A stretch of DNA of 64,000 bases from an uncultured Opitutia bacterium (lineage in GTDB: Bacteria; Verrucomicrobiota; Verrucomicrobiia; Opitutales; Opitutaceae), in contig CAIRTK010000059.1 in the NCBI GenBank assembly GCA_903881475.1, positions 1 through 64,000 of the forward strand, given 5' to 3'. Within the stretch, counting starts at the first letter, position 1. Every line of letters begins with the position of its first letter. Positions 3,917 through 63,965 of the stretch are shown in pieces. A program made the translations under genes and the position numbers. The notes below the pieces were generated by a model. The model worked only from the letters and a program-made list of their open reading frames with translations, had not been told where the DNA came from and did not search any database.

Positions 3917-6051
3917 TGGACGGCCGGGCGCTGCTCCTCTGGCAATTTTTCTGCCTGCTGGTCACGGCGGCGGGGTGGGGCGTCTGGGTGTGGAACTTCG
4001 CCGGCCGGCCGGCTCCGCTTCGCCGCACCGCCTGGCTGTGGTGCGGACTGGGCGGGTTTTGCGCCCACGCGCTGGTCCTGCAGGGTCTGGTTTATCTCGA
4101 CGTACCGATCACGCGCACGGCCTGGCCGGCGTTCGCGGTGGCGTGGGCCGGGCTGGCGACGGCGGCCTGGCGCGGTTGGCGGGGCCGCGGCACGGGATCA
4201 GAGCAGGGATGGAGTGAGGCCCGGTGGTACGCGGGCGTTTTCCTGATCGTCATCGCGGTGCAGTCCATCGGGCTGTTTTGGGTGGGGCCGGCGGACTATT
4301 ATGGCAAGGGGCGCTACGACCAGGCCAACTATGTCGTTACCGCGCAGTTCCTGGTCGAACGGCCCTTTTCCACGGCGGGCAGCGATATCGGCCTGCATCC
4401 CTGGCTGGCGAAGGCCGTCGAGACCAAGGAGCAGCGCATCACGCAGTCGGTGGCGCATGGCGCCCTCGCGGTGGCAAGCGGCGCGGATGCCCAGCAGGCC
4501 TACGGCGCCATCAGCGTTTTTTTCATCGGCCTGGCCGGCCTGGCGGTGGTGGCCTGGCTGCGGGCCTGGGCGGTGCCGCGCTGGCTGGCGGCCGCCGGTG
4601 GTGCTGGGGCGGCGCTCGGCCCGGCGGTGACGACCCTGCAGCTCGACTGCTACTATTCCCAAGCCAGCACGCTTTTCGTCCTGCCGGCGCTGGCCGGTCT
4701 GCTGGCCACCCGCGGCCCGCTGCGGGCCTGGCAACGGCTGGTCGCGGGCCTGTTGCTGGCCTTTCTGATCGGGGCCTATTCCGAGATCGCGGTGGTGGGA
4801 GCGGGACTGGTGGTTTCGCTGCGGCTGATGGCGAAGGTACCGTGGCTGTGCCGCTGGCGTGATCTGGGCTGGATTTTCGCCGGTGCCTTGCTCGCGAATC
4901 CCGGCTACCTGCCGCGGTTACCGCGGTTTCTGCTCCAGCAGGGAGTTCATATGCGCGACCCCAACCTGCTGGCGGCGCTGGTGCCGGAAAGCGGCACGTG
5001 GTCCGGCTGGGGCCGGCTGTTTCTCGATCTGCCAGCCGGCCGCCTGGGGGATGTCGCCGTGGTCGCGGCGGGTGCGCTCATGCTAGCCCTGATGATCTCC
5101 GCCCTGTGGCGCCGGAACCGGATGTTGCTGGCAACCCTGATTGCGCCGGTGGGAGTGCTGGGCTGGCTCCTGTTGCTGCCCGTCCTGGCAAAATATCCCT
5201 TTGCCAAGCTGGGTGCGGGCTTTGCCCCGCTGTGGGTGGGCACGGCGGTGCTTGGCTGGGCGACACCGGGCCGCCGTCTTGCTGGAATCCGGATCGCACT
5301 GGCCGTGGCTTTTCTTGGGGCCGGCGCCGTGAGTGCGTTGAGGCAGCAGGTGCAGGTGATCGGGCGGGAGGCGACCCTCGCGGAGTTGGATTCCGCCGGA
5401 ATCCACCGGGCCAGGGCGGAAGCCAGCGCGCATCCTGAAAGAGCGTATCTGGTCGTCAGCGACCATCCGCTGATTGCCCAGTGGCTCTGCTATTTTGCCC
5501 GCGCCTCGGAGGTCTATCTCGACCGGCGCCATCTCGGTGATCGCGTGGTGCCCAGCGAAACTTATGCCTTCCGCCGGCTGCCGGCCGGTGGCGCGGTCCT
5601 GTGGTGGCTGGATCTCCAACGCCAAGGTCCGGTCGCGAGCCACCAGCCCGCCTGCACCCTGCGGGTGAGCGGCGCGGCGGAGGAGGGGACGGTCACGATC
5701 GGGCGTTACTATCTGGCGCGAACCGCGCTCGATCTGGAAATCGACCGCCCTGCCGCGGATCCGGCGCTGCTGCCCCTCTGGCTGGATTTCGTGGGCACGC
5801 CGATGCCCGGGGCGGCCCCTTACGAGCTCGAGCTGGTCGATGCCGGCGGACACCGTCAGCACACGACGGTGACCGGCCCGCGCATGCTGCGGTTTCAGCT
5901 CGTCCTCTCCCGCGGGCTCAACCGCTACACGCTGCACGTGGAACCGGGACCGCACCAGCCCGCCGGATCCGGCGGGCTGGTGGTGCAGTCGCTCAGCCTG
6001 GATCCGGTGACGGCAGTCGGGTTGGCGACGGATCCGGCGCCAGCCGAATGA
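3916..6051 (+). CDS. Large membrane protein, GT-C-like, with C-terminal soluble domain
   Basis: About 711 residues. The first roughly 480 residues are a series of hydrophobic segments; the last 230 or so are soluble and rich in beta-type sequence, probably periplasmic. A GRYDQANY motif follows the third or fourth membrane segment, in the position where GT-C enzymes carry their acidic loop. It overlaps the stop of the preceding gene by one base and belongs to the same transcription unit. I do not recognise a named family. Role in the same lipid-linked sugar process as its neighbours is inferred from context only. Confidence 0.68.
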   Translation: MDGRALLLWQFFCLLVTAAGWGVWVWNFAGRPAPLRRTAWLWCGLGGFCAHALVLQGLVYLDVPITRTAWPAFAVAWAGLATAAWRGWRGRGTGSEQGWSEARWYAGVFLIVIAVQSIGLFWVGPADYYGKGRYDQANYVVTAQFLVERPFSTAGSDIGLHPWLAKAVETKEQRITQSVAHGALAVASGADAQQAYGAISVFFIGLAGLAVVAWLRAWAVPRWLAAAGGAGAALGPAVTTLQLDCYYSQASTLFVLPALAGLLATRGPLRAWQRLVAGLLLAFLIGAYSEIAVVGAGLVVSLRLMAKVPWLCRWRDLGWIFAGALLANPGYLPRLPRFLLQQGVHMRDPNLLAALVPESGTWSGWGRLFLDLPAGRLGDVAVVAAGALMLALMISALWRRNRMLLATLIAPVGVLGWLLLLPVLAKYPFAKLGAGFAPLWVGTAVLGWATPGRRLAGIRIALAVAFLGAGAVSALRQQVQVIGREATLAELDSAGIHRARAEASAHPERAYLVVSDHPLIAQWLCYFARASEVYLDRRHLGDRVVPSETYAFRRLPAGGAVLWWLDLQRQGPVASHQPACTLRVSGAAEEGTVTIGRYYLARTALDLEIDRPAADPALLPLWLDFVGTPMPGAAPYELELVDAGGHRQHTTVTGPRMLRFQLVLSRGLNRYTLHVEPGPHQPAGSGGLVVQSLSLDPVTAVGLATDPAPAE

Positions 6052-32968: not shown

Positions 32969-35056
32969 TTACGAAGACTGTTCTGCCCATAGCGGAAGGA
33001 ACAGACGGGCAGGGAGCCAGCCTTTGTGGGGAAAAAGAAAGCGGAGTTCACCCGTGGCGAGGGCGTTTTCCTGCACGTCGAACAGGTCGGTGGGCGCGGG
33101 CAGGTCGAGGTTGCGCATCAGCACGGGATAGCCGCTGCGTTCGCGGCGATAGTGCTGCACCGGGGCGTCGGCGAAGACGGAGGGTGACGGATGACGGCTG
33201 AAATAGTCCATGCGTTCCGGCGTGTTGGCGCGGGCGCTGACTTCGCCGGACGACGCGGTGCCGGCGAGCCAGGGAATCAGCTCAGTCAGGTAGCCGGCCT
33301 CGCGATCGGCAAAAGGCGAAACCTCGCTGTGCCGAAGAGACCGGGCATCTTGGATCATCGCCAGGGTCAGGGCCCTAACGGCCGGTTGCAACGGCTGCAG
33401 GGCCGGCTGGTGCCACCACGGCGACACGAGGAAGACCGGATCATTGAGGCATTCGAGAGCAAGGGCCCGCACGGCGGCGGCGCGATGACCCTGGTTGAGC
33501 CGGGCAAGTCCGAGGCCGAAATAAACTCCGCCCTTGTCGGGTACGAGCTGCGCGGCGGCGATAAAGTGGGCTTCGGCCGCGGCGGGATCGCGCACGACGA
33601 GGAGCCAAGCCAGGTTGAAGTGCGCAATCTCCTGATCGGGATTAAGCGCGAGTGACTGCTTGAACAGTGAGACGGCCGTTTCCTGCTGCACCGGATCACT
33701 GGCGAACGAGAGCGCGCGGAGATTGAGCTCCGGCGTGGGATCGGGCCGGCCCAGCAACGCCATCACCCCGAGTGCGGTCACGGTAAGGAAACCGAGGACA
33801 CGCCGGCTCAGTTTGTCACCTATTGGGTGACAAACTGCGGGAGCGGGCGGGGCGAGGAGGGCGGCGCAGGCGGCGACGGCGAAGGCGAACACGGGGACGT
33901 CGAGCTGATAGTCGGTGAGCGCGAAGGCGGCATAACCGCCGAGCGTGACGGCGGCGGGCAGGCAGCGCGTGGCGTTGCGCGCGGTCAGGAGCACGAAAAC
34001 GAGCAGGCCGGCAAGGCCGGCGGCGCCGAGTTCGGCCCAGAGCTGCACGGGCAGGCTGTGGAGTTGGAGGACGTTTTCCACGCCGCCATCGAGTTGGGCG
34101 CGGAAGCGCGGGTAGGCCAGCGGCGTGGTGCCCGGGCCCCAGCCGAACAGCGGGCGCGCGAGTCCCATCAGGCCGCCGGCCCGGGCCATGGCGGTGCGCT
34201 GGACGTTGCTGATATTGGGCTCGGCGGCGGGATCCGGCCGGTGAAACATCGCCCGGGTGCGCGGATGGGCGAGGGCGAGGGCCAGGGCCGCAATCACGGC
34301 GAGCACGGCGAAGCCGAGGGTCTTTCGCCAGCCCAGTCGCAGAGCCAGCAACCCGCCGGCCATCAGTGCGCCGAGTCCGAGCAGTCCGCCACGACTGCCG
34401 CTGGTGAACAGCAGAACGAGGGCGAGCAGACCTGCTCCGGCCCAGGCGAGGCGGGGCGCGCCGGTGGCGCGGGTCGCGAGCATCGTGAAACAGGGCAGCA
34501 TGAGCAGCGCCAGCCCGGCGGTGTAGTTGGAATGGCCGAGCGGGTAGGGATTGCGCGCCTCGAAAATTTCCCGGACCGAAGCTCCCGGCAACCCGGCGAG
34601 CCACAGGCCGAGGCTGGTAAGCGCGATGATCGCGAGGAAAAATCCGGCGCGCTTCAGCACCGAAGAGCCGCTGGTGCCGGAGCCCATGGGTCCGGCATGG
34701 ACTGCGTCGAACCCGACAAAGAAAAAAGCGAGGCCCGACAGCAGCGGCGCGGACCACAACAGGCTGGGGCCGCGATACGGACTCGTGAGGGCGGACGCCA
34801 GGATGGCCACCGCGCCGGCCAGTGCCGTCCAGCACCAGGATCGGGCGGGCAGGATGAGGGGGCGATTGCAGTCAAAGGCACGCAGGAGCAGGACGGCGGC
34901 CGGCGCCAGCAGCGCGAACCCGTAGATACAGGACCACGGTGACGAGTGCATCCGGGTGGCGCCGGGACTGGCGAGCGTGATGACCAGCAGGGCGGCGGCC
35001 CCGACCAAGCCGAGCAGCGGGGCCAGGCGGGAAGCGGAGTCGGCGGGACGCGTCAT
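32969..35056 (-). CDS. O-antigen ligase/polymerase-like protein with repeat tail
   Basis: 695 residues. About twelve helices include GHSNYTAGLALLMLPCF, LLFTSGSRGGLLGLG and RPLFGWGPGTTPLAYPRF, the blocks of the Wzy_C/WaaL family, with a histidine in VLQLHSLPVQLWAELG at the position of the family's essential loop histidine. The C-terminal 270 residues contain TPR-like helices (ALNPDQEIAHFNLAWLLV, KGGVYFGLGLARLNQGHR). Such chimeras are known as ligases for O-antigen or protein glycosylation. Residues about 407-416 (VCHPIGDKLS) are encoded by a perfect palindrome also found in intergenic positions, so a mobile short repeat appears to have landed in frame in a linker. It lies four bases upstream of the initiator gene. 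Confidence 0.87.
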   Translation of the reverse strand: MTRPADSASRLAPLLGLVGAAALLVITLASPGATRMHSSPWSCIYGFALLAPAAVLLLRAFDCNRPLILPARSWCWTALAGAVAILASALTSPYRGPSLLWSAPLLSGLAFFFVGFDAVHAGPMGSGTSGSSVLKRAGFFLAIIALTSLGLWLAGLPGASVREIFEARNPYPLGHSNYTAGLALLMLPCFTMLATRATGAPRLAWAGAGLLALVLLFTSGSRGGLLGLGALMAGGLLALRLGWRKTLGFAVLAVIAALALALAHPRTRAMFHRPDPAAEPNISNVQRTAMARAGGLMGLARPLFGWGPGTTPLAYPRFRAQLDGGVENVLQLHSLPVQLWAELGAAGLAGLLVFVLLTARNATRCLPAAVTLGGYAAFALTDYQLDVPVFAFAVAACAALLAPPAPAVCHPIGDKLSRRVLGFLTVTALGVMALLGRPDPTPELNLRALSFASDPVQQETAVSLFKQSLALNPDQEIAHFNLAWLLVVRDPAAAEAHFIAAAQLVPDKGGVYFGLGLARLNQGHRAAAVRALALECLNDPVFLVSPWWHQPALQPLQPAVRALTLAMIQDARSLRHSEVSPFADREAGYLTELIPWLAGTASSGEVSARANTPERMDYFSRHPSPSVFADAPVQHYRRERSGYPVLMRNLDLPAPTDLFDVQENALATGELRFLFPHKGWLPARLFLPLWAEQSS
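33809..33837 (+). repeat. Type A palindrome inside the ligase-like gene
   Basis: Perfect 12-bp arms CAGTTTGTCACC (33809-33820) and GGTGACAAACTG (33826-33837) around TATTG. The same core occurs at 47907 and 56497. Here it is translated in frame as part of the linker between the membrane and TPR-like regions. Confidence 0.9.
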
Positions 35057-37405: not shown

Positions 37406-38002
37406 ATGAAGCTCCGACTGTTAACCCTCTTTGCCACGCTGGCGCTCGCCGCCTGCGCCCAATCTGACATGATGAAATCCACCCAACCCGCGAAAGACGC
37501 CCTCGAGTGCAAGCCCGACGAAAAATCCGCCTGCGGCCTGCCGTCCCACGTCGTGATCGACATGAGCAAGGCCAAGGTGCAGCGCACCGACGCCGAGTGG
37601 CAGCAGCTGCTCAATGCGCGCCAGTTCCAGGTCGCGCGGAAACAGGGCACCGAGCCGCCGTTCCAGAACGAGTACTGGGACAACCACGCGGACGGCGTCT
37701 ATTTCTCCGTCTGCAGCGACACGCCGCTCTTCGACAGCCGGGACAAGTTCGAGAGCGGCACGGGCTGGCCGAGCTTCACGAAGCCGATCGAGAAGGCGTT
37801 TGTCGGCGAGACGACGGACACGAGCTATGGCATGGAGCGCACGGAAGTGCACTGCAACGTGGACGGCGCGCACCTCGGGCACGTCTTTGAGGACGGCCCG
37901 GCGCCGACCGGCCTGCGCTACTGCATCAACAGCGCCTCGCTGCGCTTCGTGCCGCGCAAGGCGTATGAGGCGTGGGTGGCGAAAAATCAGCCCGCTAAAT
38001 AG
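37406..38002 (+). CDS. msrB: Lipoprotein peptide-methionine (R)-S-oxide reductase
   Basis: 198 residues from ATG at 37406. A signal peptide ends in the lipobox LALAAC, giving an acylated Cys17. The MsrB domain has ESGTGWPSF (about 117-124), GAHLGHVF (154-161) and RYCINSASLRF with the catalytic Cys173. Both zinc-binding C-x-x-C pairs are reduced to single cysteines (VCSDTPLF and VHCNVDGAHLG), so this is a zinc-free form. Known role: reduces methionine-R-sulfoxide in proteins; the lipoprotein signal puts it in the cell envelope. The stop codon lies inside the terminator hairpin. Confidence 0.94.
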   Translation: MKLRLLTLFATLALAACAQSDMMKSTQPAKDALECKPDEKSACGLPSHVVIDMSKAKVQRTDAEWQQLLNARQFQVARKQGTEPPFQNEYWDNHADGVYFSVCSDTPLFDSRDKFESGTGWPSFTKPIEKAFVGETTDTSYGMERTEVHCNVDGAHLGHVFEDGPAPTGLRYCINSASLRFVPRKAYEAWVAKNQPAK

Positions 38003-38015
38003 CGGGCTGATTTTT
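37982..38015 (+). terminator. Rho-independent terminator of msrB
   Basis: Perfect 15-bp stem from AAAAATCAGCCCGCT (37982-37996) and AGCGGGCTGATTTTT (38001-38015) with loop AAAT. The msrB stop codon lies in the loop and right arm. A/T runs on both ends make it usable in both directions. Confidence 0.92.
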
Positions 38016-38016
38016 G

Positions 38017-38126
38017 GGAGCAGGGAGATTGTAGCTGGGAGATGGAATGCCCGAGCCTTGTGGAAGGGAAGACGACTCGCCGAAGACTTCCATCTCCTAT
38101 CTCCAAGTTCCCGTCTCCGATTTCCT
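38017..38126 (+). repeat. Imperfect inverted repeat of GGGAGATGG words
   Basis: The left arm (38017-38046: GGAGCAGGGAGATT, GCTGGGAGATGGAA) pairs with the right arm (38087-38126: TTCCATCTCCTATCTCC, GTCTCCGATTTCC). The words GGGAGAT/ATCTCC recur. Related left-arm words (GGAGCTGGGAGATGGGATG) occur at 57617-57635. Confidence 0.75.
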
Positions 38127-43444: not shown

Positions 43445-43579
43445 GGAAATTCGAAGGTCAAAATCCGAAATTCGAAGGAAGCGCCAATGCGAAGCCTCCG
43501 ATCACGCTCCAGCCACCCGCGCTGTGTTCTTCGGGCTTCTATTTTCTTTCGAATTTCGGGTTTCGATCTTCGAATTTCC
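43445..43579 (+). repeat. Imperfect inverted repeat of TTCGAA/ATCCGAAATTCGAA words
   Basis: The left arm (43445-43478, GGAAATTCGAAGGTC then AATCCGAAATTCGAAGG) pairs with the right arm (about 43544-43579, TTTCGAATTTCGGG then ATCTTCGAATTTCC). Only scattered mismatches occur, and pairing extends inward through GAAGCC/GGGCTTC. It runs up to the stop codon of the DUF1653 gene. A single arm of the same words is present at 63915-63965. Confidence 0.82.
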
Positions 43580-47023: not shown

Positions 47024-47905
47024 ATGGATAAAATCGACCGAAAGACTGCCTCGGGTCTCCTGTCACAGCAAGTCACGCACGCCCGGTATTTCTTTCACAA
47101 CCTCGTGCCGCGGAGCAGCGGTCCGTTCGGGCTCGTGATGGGCGGCCGGGAGCACTGCAACCCCGATTACGCGCTGCGGCGGCCGAGTTTTCCCTTCTAT
47201 GGCTTGGAGTATGTCGCGGCGGGGCACGGCACGGTGAAGCTCGGCGACCGCTGGCAGAACCTCGGGCCGGGCATGGTGTTTGCCTACGCGCCCGCGACCC
47301 GCTGCGAGATCCGCACCGACCCGCGCGACCCGATGGTGAAATATTTTCTCTCGTTCGCCGGCGCCGATGCTCCGCGGCGGTTGCGGCGCTGCGGGGCCGC
47401 GGTCGGGCGCACGCGCCAGCTGGCAGCCCACGCCGAGATCACGAGCGTCCTGGAGGACCTGGTGCGCGAGGGGCAGCGCTCAGGGGCGTTGGCGGGCCGC
47501 ATTTGCGCGGCGCTGATGGAGGTCCTGCTGCTGAAGATCGAGGACACGGCCACGCTGGCGCCGCATGCGAGCGAGCCGGCACGCGAGGCGTTCCTGCGGT
47601 GCAAGGCGGTGATCGACGCGCAGGTCGAGCGGCTGGGTTCGCTGGAGGAAATCGCCCGCGTCGCCGGCGTGGAGGCGTCGAGCGTGTGCCGCTGGTTCCG
47701 CCGGTACCAGGGCACGAGTCCCTACCAGTACCTGCTGCGGCGGAAGATGAACCTCGCGGCCGAGCATCTCGTCGAGAACGGCGGGCTGGTGAAGGAGGCG
47801 GCGCAGCGGCTGGGGTTTGCCGACCCGTACCACTTTTCCCGCGCCTTCAAGTCGGTGCATGGCGTCGCCCCGCGGACCCTGCTGCGCTACCGGCGGGCCG
47901 GCTAA
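47024..47905 (+). CDS. AraC-family transcriptional regulator
   Basis: About 293 residues from ATG at 47024; ATG at 47003 is an alternative. The N-terminal cupin-like sensor includes LEYVAAGHGTVKLGDRWQNL. The C-terminal double helix-turn-helix has LEEIARVAGVEASSVCRWFR, YQGTSPYQYLLRRKMNLA and VKEAAQRLGFADPYHFSRAFK followed by GVAPRTLLRYR. Family members are sugar-responsive activators. Divergent from the isomerase-like gene. The TAA at its end is directly followed by a palindrome pair. Confidence 0.9.
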   Translation: MDKIDRKTASGLLSQQVTHARYFFHNLVPRSSGPFGLVMGGREHCNPDYALRRPSFPFYGLEYVAAGHGTVKLGDRWQNLGPGMVFAYAPATRCEIRTDPRDPMVKYFLSFAGADAPRRLRRCGAAVGRTRQLAAHAEITSVLEDLVREGQRSGALAGRICAALMEVLLLKIEDTATLAPHASEPAREAFLRCKAVIDAQVERLGSLEEIARVAGVEASSVCRWFRRYQGTSPYQYLLRRKMNLAAEHLVENGGLVKEAAQRLGFADPYHFSRAFKSVHGVAPRTLLRYRRAG

Positions 47906-47906
47906 G

Positions 47907-47929
47907 TTTGTCCCCTATTGGGTGACAAA
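47907..47929 (+). repeat. Type A palindrome after the AraC-type gene
   Basis: TTTGTCCCC (47907-47915) and GGTGACAAA (47921-47929) around TATTG; one mismatch in the arms. Same core and loop as the copy at 33809. Confidence 0.85.
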
Positions 47930-47956
47930 TGGCCGGGCGGCGCTGCGGCGGGAATA

Positions 47957-47971
47957 TCACGTATTACGTGA
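47957..47971 (+). repeat. Type B palindrome
   Basis: TCACGTA (47957-47963) and TACGTGA (47965-47971) around a single T; the flanks are diverged. It lies 27 bases from a type A copy. A longer perfect copy is at 56436. Confidence 0.8.
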
Positions 47972-48033
47972 CACTTGCCGTGGCTGGGGCCGGAAGCGGC
48001 CCGTCGGGGCGACGGGCCCTGCCGTGTGGGCAC

Positions 48034-54738: not shown

Positions 54739-56385
54739 ATGAAACGCCTGATCCTGACCTTGGCTTTGATTCTTTCGGCGACGGTGTGCGGTCGCGCCGC
54801 AGAGCCCGCCCCGGCCGTGCCGGCCCGCGAGGCCTACGTGATGCATTTCGACGGGGACTGGCGCGTGGCCGGCGGCCTGCCGGAGAAGGCGCTGCTCATC
54901 AGCCTGCAGGGCCTCGCGAACCGCGCCGCGCCGCAATTCTATGTGATCCACCCGCGGGATTACCAATGGGAGATCACGCTGCCGCTCTATGAATACTATG
55001 AGCACAAATATGGCGTGCACTTCACCGAACTGAAGACGGCGGGTGACGCGCTCACGCAGTTCAGGTCCGCGCTCAAGGGCTACGTGGTGTGGGACAAGGC
55101 CGTGCCTACGTCGCTCAACGTCGCCTTCACGATCGCCGGCCTTGAGGACGCGGTGGTGGTCACCGCGGACCTGATCCCGCTGGTGGAGCAGCACGGGCTG
55201 AAGCCGGTTGACGACCTGCGCGGCCGCTACACGGGCCGGACCGATGCGCAGATCTACCAGGACGCGGTGAACCGCTACTGGGCGCGCTGCAACCGGGACG
55301 CCGTGATGATGATGGGCGGGCAGCGCGGCGCCATCATGATGCCCGGCATGGCCGACTGGGGCGTGCGCGAGAAGATGTTCTTCCACGACCTTGCGGCGAA
55401 TCCCGAGATCCCGGCCGAACTGGCGCTGGAGAAACGGCTGCTGTCCGAACTGAATCCCGGCGCGACCGTCTTCGGCTGGCATCCCTACGGCAAGGACACG
55501 GAGGAGATGCACACGACGCTGATCTCCAGTCACGGCCTCAAGATGGAGGGCCTGCATAACCTCCCGAACCTGAGCTTCAACTGCCAGTTCACGTTCACGC
55601 CCGGCTTCAAGTTCACCAACCACGCGCACGTGGCGCTCGATGCTAAGTTGGAGGCGCAGGACAAGGTCTACCTTTCGTTCGTGCAGTCCGACAGCATCGG
55701 CATCGGCGTGTGGACGAAGCCCGGCCGCGGCCAGCTGCCCTTCGCGTGGCAGGTCACGATGAACTGGACGAAGTTCTCGCCCGCAGCGCTGGAGTATTTC
55801 CACGAGAGCGCGACGCCGAACGACTACTTCATCGGCGGCCTGTCCGGACCGGGTTACATGTACCCGAACCACATCCCGGCGGACAAATTCCCGCTGCTGA
55901 TGAAGCAGGCGAATGAACTCATGGGCCTGCTCGACGAGCACGTGCTGGAGATCATGGACAACTCCGCCGCCGACGGAAACCTGGGCAACGCCGACCTGAC
56001 GAAGGAGACGGTGGACCGGTATTACCAGGCGTTCCCGAACGTGATCGGCTTCATCAACGGCTACGGTCCGGCACGCACCCGCGACCTGCGCGGCACGCAG
56101 CCGCTGATTTCGTATGATTACTACATCGACCCCCGCCGCCCCCGCGAGGAAGTCGCCGCCGACCTCGAGGAGCTCATCGCGCTGAATGCCAAGCGGCCAT
56201 ATTTCCTGCTCGTGCACGTGCGCGAGTCGAACGACGTCAACAGCCTGATCACGATCGTGAAGCAGCTCACGGGCCCGACGGAGGTCGTGCCGCTCGATGT
56301 CTTCCTCAAGCTCGCGGCGAGCAAGCAGACCTACACAACGCGCTACCAGGACCCCGCGGACCCGAAGCATTTTAAAGGCTTCTGA
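54739..56385 (+). CDS. Secreted GxGYxYP-motif (PF14323-like) protein
   Basis: 548 residues with signal peptide MKRLILTLALILSATVCGRA. LSGPGYMYPNHI (motif at 370-376) is the GxGYxYP signature; nearby are FWHPYGK-like GWHPYGKDTEEMH and SFVQSDSIGIGVW. Such proteins are annotated as putative glycoside hydrolases or carbohydrate-active enzymes in Bacteroidota, Planctomycetota and Verrucomicrobiota; the activity has not been established to my knowledge. Four bases separate it from the upstream small secreted protein, and a palindrome pair follows it. Confidence 0.88.
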   Translation: MKRLILTLALILSATVCGRAAEPAPAVPAREAYVMHFDGDWRVAGGLPEKALLISLQGLANRAAPQFYVIHPRDYQWEITLPLYEYYEHKYGVHFTELKTAGDALTQFRSALKGYVVWDKAVPTSLNVAFTIAGLEDAVVVTADLIPLVEQHGLKPVDDLRGRYTGRTDAQIYQDAVNRYWARCNRDAVMMMGGQRGAIMMPGMADWGVREKMFFHDLAANPEIPAELALEKRLLSELNPGATVFGWHPYGKDTEEMHTTLISSHGLKMEGLHNLPNLSFNCQFTFTPGFKFTNHAHVALDAKLEAQDKVYLSFVQSDSIGIGVWTKPGRGQLPFAWQVTMNWTKFSPAALEYFHESATPNDYFIGGLSGPGYMYPNHIPADKFPLLMKQANELMGLLDEHVLEIMDNSAADGNLGNADLTKETVDRYYQAFPNVIGFINGYGPARTRDLRGTQPLISYDYYIDPRRPREEVAADLEELIALNAKRPYFLLVHVRESNDVNSLITIVKQLTGPTEVVPLDVFLKLAASKQTYTTRYQDPADPKHFKGF

Positions 56386-56435: not shown

Positions 56436-56460
56436 CAATGTCACGTATTACGTGACATTG
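56436..56460 (+). repeat. Type B palindrome (perfect)
   Basis: Perfect 12-bp arms CAATGTCACGTA (56436-56447) and TACGTGACATTG (56449-56460) around T. A shortened copy is at 47957. Confidence 0.92.
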
Positions 56461-56496
56461 GCAAAGGTCCGCGGATGGAAGCGGCGAAGGTCGGAG

Positions 56497-56527
56497 TGAG
56501 TTTGTCACCCCTTAGGTGACAAACTCA
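56497..56527 (+). repeat. Type A palindrome (perfect)
   Basis: Perfect 13-bp arms TGAGTTTGTCACC (56497-56509) and GGTGACAAACTCA (56515-56527) around CCTTA. Compare copies at 33809 and 47907. It ends 74 bases before the TrmH-like start. Confidence 0.92.
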
Positions 56528-56600
56528 GCGAGAGATTCCAGCGGGCGTGACGCTGCGCGCTTTTGTTTGGTTTTGGGCGGCGACTGCTCCAGCGTGCGGC

Positions 56601-57575
56601 ATGGCTTCCTTTTCCAAGTTTGGTCCGGGCTCCCGTCCAGTGCCGCGTGCGTCGGAAAACGCCGGTGAATTCGTCGCGCCGGCCGGCGGCATGCGGCTGC
56701 GCGGCGCCTCGGAAGTGCCGGGGGGCAAGCCCGCGGCAGTGCCGGCGGTACGGGCCGAGGCGCCGGCTGGGGCCGAGCCGGCGGGTTCCCGCAGCGGGCC
56801 GGCGCGCCATGACGAACTGAAGCTCTGCGGGCTGGCGGCGGTGCGCGCGCGCTTTGCGCGCGATCCGGCTTCGATCAAGCGGCTGTTTTTCGACAAGGAC
56901 ACGGGGCAGCGGGTCGGCATCATCTGCAAGGTGCTCGCGCGGGAAAAGAAGATCTACCGGCAGGTGGAGCCGGCCGAGTTGGAGAAAATCTCCGGTTCGC
57001 TCCACCACGGTGGCATTGTCGCGGTGGTCTATGCCCCGCCGCTGCGGACACCGACTGGCGAGGATATCCGGGCATGGGCGAAGCGCGGCGAGCCGCTGCT
57101 GGTGCTCGACCGGATCGGCAATGCGCACAACCTGGGGGCGGTGGCGCGCACGGCGGCGTTTTTCGGCGTGCCTCGGCTGGTGATACCCGAGGATCCCGCC
57201 GCGGCGCGGCCCAATGATGCGGCCTATCGCGTGGCCGAGGGGGGATTCGAGCATCTGGAGGTATGGCGCGTGCCGGTTTTGGCGGCGTTTGTCCGGGAAC
57301 TCACGGCGGCGGGCTATGAGGTGGTCGGCGCGGCGACGCGCGGCGGCCGGCTCGGGGCAAAGCGGGGTGAGGGCACCCCGCCCACATCGGAAACTGGGAA
57401 AGGGGCCGCCAAGCTTGTCGCGCTGGTTCTGGGCAACGAGGAGCAGGGGCTCGCGCCCGAGGTAACTGCGGCCTGCACGCGGCTCGTGACGATTCCCGGC
57501 AGCGGCAAGGTCGAGTCGTTGAACGTCTCGGTCGCGGCGGCGGTGCTGATGTGGGAGATTTTTCGCAGACCATAG
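56601..57575 (+). CDS. TrmH/SpoU-family RNA 2'-O-methyltransferase
   Basis: 324 residues from ATG at 56601; an in-frame GTG at 56547 is possible. The N-terminal 65 residues are low-complexity, and the SPOUT domain has LVLDRIGNAHNLGAVARTAA (motif 1), LVALVLGNEEQGLAPEV (motif 2) and TIPGSGKVESLNVSVAAAVL (motif 3), the three trefoil-knot blocks. An L30e-like substrate-binding region precedes it (LCGLAAVRARF). Target nucleotide (tRNA or 23S rRNA) is unclear. Between motifs an in-frame insert AKRGEGTPPTSETGKGAA is encoded by a hairpin-forming sequence (57362-57381). Confidence 0.9.
   Translation: MASFSKFGPGSRPVPRASENAGEFVAPAGGMRLRGASEVPGGKPAAVPAVRAEAPAGAEPAGSRSGPARHDELKLCGLAAVRARFARDPASIKRLFFDKDTGQRVGIICKVLAREKKIYRQVEPAELEKISGSLHHGGIVAVVYAPPLRTPTGEDIRAWAKRGEPLLVLDRIGNAHNLGAVARTAAFFGVPRLVIPEDPAAARPNDAAYRVAEGGFEHLEVWRVPVLAAFVRELTAAGYEVVGAATRGGRLGAKRGEGTPPTSETGKGAAKLVALVLGNEEQGLAPEVTAACTRLVTIPGSGKVESLNVSVAAAVLMWEIFRRP
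57362..57381 (+). repeat. Hairpin inside the TrmH-like gene
   Basis: GCGGGGTG (57362-57369) pairs perfectly with CACCCCGC (57374-57381) around AGGG. It encodes part of a linker that is not part of the conserved SPOUT motifs, and its GGGCACCCCGCCCAC tail recalls the repeat arm at 42211. Confidence 0.5.
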
Positions 57576-57708
57576 CGCGCAGATTGGCCTGATTTGCGCG
57601 CTGTGAGTTGGGAAATTGGAGCTGGGAGATGGGATGCCGCGCCAGGATGGGCGGCCGTATTCGAACTCCGAGCTGCAGGCAGCGAACTCCGCCTGGGCTC
57701 AGCCCGGC

Positions 57709-63914: not shown

Positions 63915-63965
63915 AAAGTTCGAAGGATAAAATCCGAAATCCGAAGTGAATCCAAACTTCGGAAA
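63915..63965 (+). repeat. Repeat arm of the TTCGAA/ATCCGAAAT family
   Basis: TTCGAAGGATAAAATCCGAAATCCGAAG (in 63919-63946) followed by CTTCGGAAAT shares words with the repeat at 43445-43579. The element is cut near the window end, so its partner arm is only partly seen. Confidence 0.6.

Follow-up and report, generated by a model that had tools for sequence, protein, structure and literature searches.

What are the two perfect palindromes that lie side by side between a putative glycoside hydrolase gene and an RNA methyltransferase gene of this Opitutaceae genome, and is there a protein that reads them? In the window (the whole stretch of 64,000 nucleotides that was analysed), a 25-nt palindrome of type B, CAATGTCACGTA-T-TACGTGACATTG, with perfect 12-bp arms, is followed after a gap of 36 nt by a 31-nt palindrome of type A, TGAGTTTGTCACC-CCTTA-GGTGACAAACTCA, with perfect 13-bp arms (Table 1). 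The sequence agrees exactly with the preliminary description of these palindromes, their arms and loops, the gap and the flanking genes. Five distinct perfect palindromes with arms of at least 12 bp and loops of at most 5 were counted in the window, versus one case in total over 20 windows simulated with a first-order Markov model. No T-run stands beside either palindrome at 56436-56527, on either side or either strand, in keeping with the earlier view that they are not standard terminators. The SpoU methyltransferase gene downstream has orthologues in 11 members of the genus. Between its start and the pair lies GCGCTTTTGTTTGGTTTTGGGC (56559-56581). The nearest relative (G008) preserves this stretch amid changing surroundings, as G005 very nearly does, and it may serve as a promoter or leader signal. 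The window also holds a textbook bidirectional terminator hairpin with perfect 16-bp arms at 37982-38015 (AAAAATCAGCCCGCTA-aa-TAGCGGGCTGATTTTT), a loopless perfect 30-bp palindrome where a long ORF ends, at 5953-5982 (CACCAGCCCGCCGGATCCGGCGGGCTGGTG), and degenerate dispersed phrases between genes, such as AAATTCGAAGGTCAAAATCCGAAATTCGAAG and GGAGCTGGGAGATGGGATGCC (43447-43477, 63916-63946, 38015-38051 and 57602-57638).

Table 1. Palindromes of the family in the window and the genes on either side of the 56436-56527 pair.
Feature	Position	Strand	Core	Remarks
A-type palindrome	33809..33837	.		within minus-strand gene 32969-35056, open frame ..AVCHPIGDKLS..
A-type palindrome	47905..47931	.	47909-47927	one mismatch; immediately 3′ of AraC-like ORF stop codon
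B-type palindrome	47951..47977	.	47955-47973	one mismatch; 46 bp from A core
GxGYxYP putative glycoside hydrolase gene	54739..56385	+		upstream of palindrome pair; PF14323 E 1.7e-57
B-type palindrome CAATGTCACGTATTACGTGACATTG	56436..56460	.	56439-56457	G008 orthologous place reads CGTCAATGTCACGTAATACGTGACATTGACG
A-type palindrome TGAGTTTGTCACCCCTTAGGTGACAAACTCA	56497..56527	.	56503-56521	64 bp start-to-start from B core
SpoU-family RNA 2′-O-methyltransferase gene	56601..57575	+		downstream of pair; PF00588 E 3.7e-34

Whereas A and B had been described as two types, they are variants of a single core, TGTCAC-S-YAWTR-S-GTGACA. Pattern searches, from which all copy counts derive, identified 37 distinct copies with at most two half-site changes in the genome itself (G000; 3.2 Mb, 83 contigs), where a reversed control pattern gave no match at zero mismatches. 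Five of these copies fall in the window, namely two A+B pairs (56436/56497 and, as the second, about 47905-47977) and the copy at 33809-33837. Copy number ranged from 1 to 30 in other genomes of the genus and from 0 to 71 in other Opitutaceae genera, and 20 genomes from other families of the order contained no palindromes, bar one unrelated match. When 84,980 species genomes were scanned for the pattern, the matches listed were almost exclusively from Opitutaceae/Opitutae, and viral contigs yielded only four stray matches. The papers searched included none with these sequences, none with such a repeat in Opitutaceae and no earlier description of this family. The palindromes are one family of short sites scattered through Opitutaceae genomes. 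In the GC-rich genome G030, some A copies (L126, L125, L130) border AT-rich spacers and stand next to a different palindrome, ATTAGCC..GGCTAAT.

By a simple purpose-written gene caller, approximately 75-80% of the G000 and G008 copies lie between genes, compared with approximately 20% of random positions. The intergenic copies of both genomes occupy co-directional and convergent gaps and seldom divergent ones, and some copies are intragenic, in open frames. The gene around the copy at 33809-33837 encodes a 695-aa, O-antigen-ligase-like membrane protein, and approximately 4-6 residues are absent at that place in most of five same-genus orthologues; likewise, an RlmN-like gene carries a 45-nt in-frame stretch in G000 and not in G008. 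A palindrome in a TrmH-like gene (C37:40648) was rejected as a coding coincidence, its V-T-H-Y-V motif being conserved in several orthologues, and was excluded from the comparison of orthologous sites. In that comparison, the palindrome is retained in G008 at 19 of the 21 G000 sites having an orthologous stretch, both window pairs included. The counterpart of the palindrome at 56497-56527 stands at the same place with two half-site changes (TTTGCCATC...); in the second pair, the place of 47905-47931 holds an intact A copy, and the B copy at 47955 corresponds to an A-type copy 45 bp from its partner. The two genomes differ at 3.5% of half-site positions (a lower bound, because orthologous G008 sites had to resemble the core), 8% of loop A/T, 32% of S, 32% of loop-end and 37% of W positions, and at 26% of the outer arms and approximately 50% of the flanks. 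Of the seven S pairs that changed, five are unpaired (C..A) in one of the two species. Half-sites are under constraint between these two sister species. Perfect arms had earlier been taken to imply selection or recent insertion; it is the former that the comparison upholds, the pair being both non-random and kept at the same place in G008. Clean empty sites for single palindromes were also sought, and the G008 alignments were too ragged for insertion ends or target duplications.

Unbiased blastp clustering of the genes adjacent to approximately 330 palindromes revealed one most recurrent neighbour, a gene encoding a predicted lambda-repressor-like HTH protein of 110-150 aa, which in G000 lies at C11:43280-43633. 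The gene adjoins copies in seven genomes and stands between two copies in five; in most genera having it, palindromes lie beside it, usually on both sides. A family profile found the gene in 17 of 57 relatives, all of them Opitutaceae. Among 37 Opitutaceae genomes, it is present in 15 of the 16 with at least 10 copies and absent from 19 of the 21 with fewer (Fisher p = 2e-7). The palindrome-gene-palindrome unit occupies different genomic places in most genera. The nearest relative, G008, keeps 27 copies and has no HTH gene: a stretch of 108 bp (G008:C49:12448-12556) takes the place of the 632 bp that contain the unit in G000. Because G001 has the upstream neighbour of the unit in common, loss from G008 is the simpler reading. 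Clear additional decay is not seen in the G008 copies, suggesting that the gene was lost recently, that a further protein reads the sites or that they depend little on the HTH protein.

The conserved part of the HTH protein reads LRPGxxTPLWNxL...G.K..LAR.LG.PRQRV. Pfam searches returned a weak match to PF15943 YdaS (best E 5e-4, below the gathering score) and HTH_3 at E 0.11; there was no NCBIfam match, a PDB sequence search with the HTH profile gave nothing meaningful, and no catalytic domain was recognised. An AlphaFold2 model of moderate confidence (pLDDT 73) predicts a four-helix HTH domain (helices 52-64, 70-78, 82-90 and 98-112) after an N-terminal helix. Its structural neighbours in the PDB are mostly lambda-repressor-like (POU, XRE, HipB, YdaS), with Z scores up to 7, as is common for small helical domains. 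A phage origin was rejected, relatives of the protein being absent from phage records and viral contigs.

In Cro/CI-type HTH proteins, positions 1, 5 and 6 of helix 3 usually contact bases. Across 22 units with six cores, the recognition helix of the HTH protein co-varies with the flanking core: position 1 (R/P) tracks half-site base 2 (p = 5e-4), position 5 (H/N/S) tracks base 4 (p = 0.01) and position 6 (E/D, V/L or A) tracks base 6 (p < 5e-5), in a permutation test that took units as independent, ignoring shared protein ancestry, and collapsed G002/G004b/G005. Helix PRQR[VL]H[EDN] is found with core TGTCAC, PRQRLN[DE] with TGTAAC, PPQRVH with TTTCAC, PPQRLS with TATAAC, [PS]RQRLH[VL] with TGTCAT and DRQxx[NH]A with TGTCAA. 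The base-4 relation fails in G017 (RVN) and L221 (RVD). The dispersed copies of G002, G004 and G005 read mostly TGTAAC, matching the sites at their own HTH genes. From the PPQR helix of G014 we predicted dispersed TTTCAC sites before looking, and the prediction held: the 800 kb examined, which make up 13% of the chromosome, contain five TTTCAC, no TGTCAC and four TGTAAC palindromes. The compensatory changes that the preliminary description had proposed to look for are borne out in part, as a genome-wide co-change of both arms from TGTCAC to TGTAAC, but they track a DNA-binding protein and do not demonstrate an RNA hairpin.

The arrangement of neighbouring palindromes is also regular. Their start-to-start spacings fall at 42-48, 54-57 (60), 64-66, 76-81, 86-89, 101-102, 110-112, 120 and 126-128 bp, with isolated single cases at 36 and 69 and none at 49-53, 61-63, 70-75, 82-85 or 90-100. 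The Rayleigh R was 0.53 at a period of 10.5-10.7 bp (n = 64, G017 left out), with a simulated p of approximately 1e-3 when each spacing value was counted once; a rule of multiples of three was weaker than a period of 10.5-11 bp. Units with other cores showed spacings of 45, 45, 54 and 67, also 58, 69 and 136. Arrays in G017 (e.g., L385, L387-L389, L398, L401) consist of four palindromes at 46-55-46, the 55-bp unit having GAGGG at its centre, and at L253 a palindrome pair, given as a 70-bp pair and as a GAGGG-bearing 48-bp pair, lies on both sides of the HTH gene. Such phased spacing points to proteins on double-stranded DNA. Covariation of the outer arms, beyond the 19-bp core, was seen in G000, in G008 and in a mixed set from the family (z up to 13.6) but was weak or absent in G030 and G017; the two S bases match each other in 94% of sites. 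Mismatches in the sense-strand stem are more often A-C than G-U (69 versus 41), the opposite of what upkeep of an RNA stem would leave. We attribute the symmetry of the arms to a second process, as yet unexplained (palindrome extrusion, templated correction or the spreading of a few arm types), and not to an RNA function.

Judging from these sequence comparisons, the palindromes are probably binding sites of the small HTH protein, and it is quite likely that the product of the gene on contig C11 binds those of G000. We infer that one HTH dimer would occupy each palindrome on double-stranded DNA, with helix ..PRQRVHE.. reading the TGTCAC half-site but not the S, Y and W bases at the centre, and that phased pairs (approximately 45, 55, 66, 78, 88 bp and so on) would be bound cooperatively on one DNA face. 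Sites adjoin the start codon of the HTH gene and follow its stop codon, so that the gene probably represses itself, by way of the site immediately preceding its start. The dispersed sites would probably be roadblocks, local structuring points or tolerated by-products of the spread of the system. Outer-arm covariation and the matching S pairs go beyond what a plain dimer would need, so that hairpin formation or correction of palindromes may play a part as well; the 27 copies of G008, and the 6-9 copies in each of G015, G028 and G031, all without the gene, likewise count against binding by this protein. More tentatively, and with rather more doubt than belief, we consider an undescribed Opitutaceae system in which HTH protein and sites evolve together in specificity and spread in units of one gene between two palindromes, no transposase being encoded, and in which helically phased pairs structure the chromosome or protect gene ends.

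Two other readings would dispense with the HTH protein altogether. Short dispersed palindromes in pairs and arrays like those of G017, in-frame copies within genes, and gains and losses of copies between sister species are what REP-like hairpins moved as single-stranded DNA by a Y1 transposase (RAYT), present or past, would also produce, and Opitutus terrae was reported to be rich in GTAG REPs (PMC3733652). A REP-associated transposase had been suggested from the outset; yet none of the 31 Y1_Tnp loci inspected had these palindromes nearby, genomes with 24, 28, 12 and 19 copies have no Y1_Tnp match, and the RAYT on contig C11 of G000 is flanked by GCGGGGTG..CACCCCGC and not by the palindrome core. 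A GTAG tag occurred at the ends of 10 of 658 site-strands, no more often than other tetranucleotides, and CGTC preceded the stem in 34 of 658 versus 33 for CCTC, showing no enrichment, although a few own-genome B copies do read CGTC. Flanks and co-occurrence led us to reject a RAYT/REP origin, which we regard as very improbable. Both flanks of the C11 transposase gene itself (G000:C11:5576-6083, L061) carry GCGGGGTG-ccct-CACCCCGC / GCGGGGTG-aggg-CACCCCGC, probably the REP of that RAYT. RNA hairpins at gene 3′ ends, acting as terminators without a U-tract or as mRNA stabilisers, would fit the copies near 3′ ends and between convergent genes, their scarcity in divergent gaps, the covarying outer arms and the T-runs beside some G030 copies. 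Against them stand the mismatch pattern, the phased spacing and helix-site covariation, which both point to double-stranded DNA, the little or no arm covariation in G017 and G030, and the window copies without a U-tract, so that an RNA role appears highly unlikely.

The remaining two readings are compatible with binding by the HTH protein and concern what the sites do. A selfish system, in which gene, two palindromes and scattered sites spread jointly at no benefit to the host, is suggested by the shifting placement of the unit among genera, its gain or loss as a block, the copies inside genes and the repeated pair at L253; we hold it to be rather unlikely, as the protein has no recognised catalytic domain, the palindromes are strongly constrained in place between sister species and no clear target-site duplication was seen. 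An ordinary transcription-factor regulon, each site acting on the adjacent promoter, would account for a single HTH protein, conserved dimer-type sites and sites beside its own start codon. Only a minority of sites lie in divergent gaps, however, many are between convergent genes or intragenic, and neighbours other than the HTH gene are inconsistent across genera; we therefore judge a regulon unlikely. Overall, the preliminary interpretation of the palindromes is partly supported.

To our knowledge, most dispersed bacterial palindromic repeats have either no known binding protein or a transposase. Here, sequence comparison ties a repeat family to a specific, predicted DNA-binding protein, with a readable residue-base code in six natural variants. 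Because the family is linked to one protein and a helix-base code, the role of the scattered palindromes becomes directly testable in a cultured Opitutaceae strain.

Among known systems, REP/BIME elements with RAYTs (the GTAG superfamily) resemble the Opitutaceae family in being short, dispersed and mostly intergenic palindromes, in pairs or arrays and sometimes within genes, that also stand on both sides of a linked gene; the Opitutaceae family differs in having no GTAG tag, an HTH protein gene in place of a Y1 transposase gene, a near-invariant half-site and phased pair spacing. The CGTC REPs, including Rickettsia RPE-4 and RPE-6 (PMC3733652), share an 8-9 bp stem with a 5-nt centre, the lack of a dedicated transposase and in-frame copies within genes, whereas our family does not carry CGTC as a rule, shows no CCA tail and has a candidate cognate HTH protein. 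Palindromic sites scattered over the chromosome, some in genes, with one reader protein are likewise known from parS/ParB, matS/MatP and SlmA, but the Opitutaceae protein and core are unrelated to these and the pairs are phased. With lambda-repressor-like regulators (XRE, Cro, YdaS), the HTH protein has in common a predicted four-helix HTH, sites beside its own gene and helix-3 positions 1, 5 and 6 tied to palindromic half-site bases; unlike them, it is accompanied by tens of near-identical sites genome-wide, including intragenic and 3′-end copies, and by sites on both sides of its gene, is covered by no Pfam or NCBIfam family, and is absent from phage collections. Neither an enriched tag nor a RAYT gene flanked by the element, tested as defining features of the two REP superfamilies, was found, and the family joins a REP-like layout to a protein resembling a phage-type repressor.
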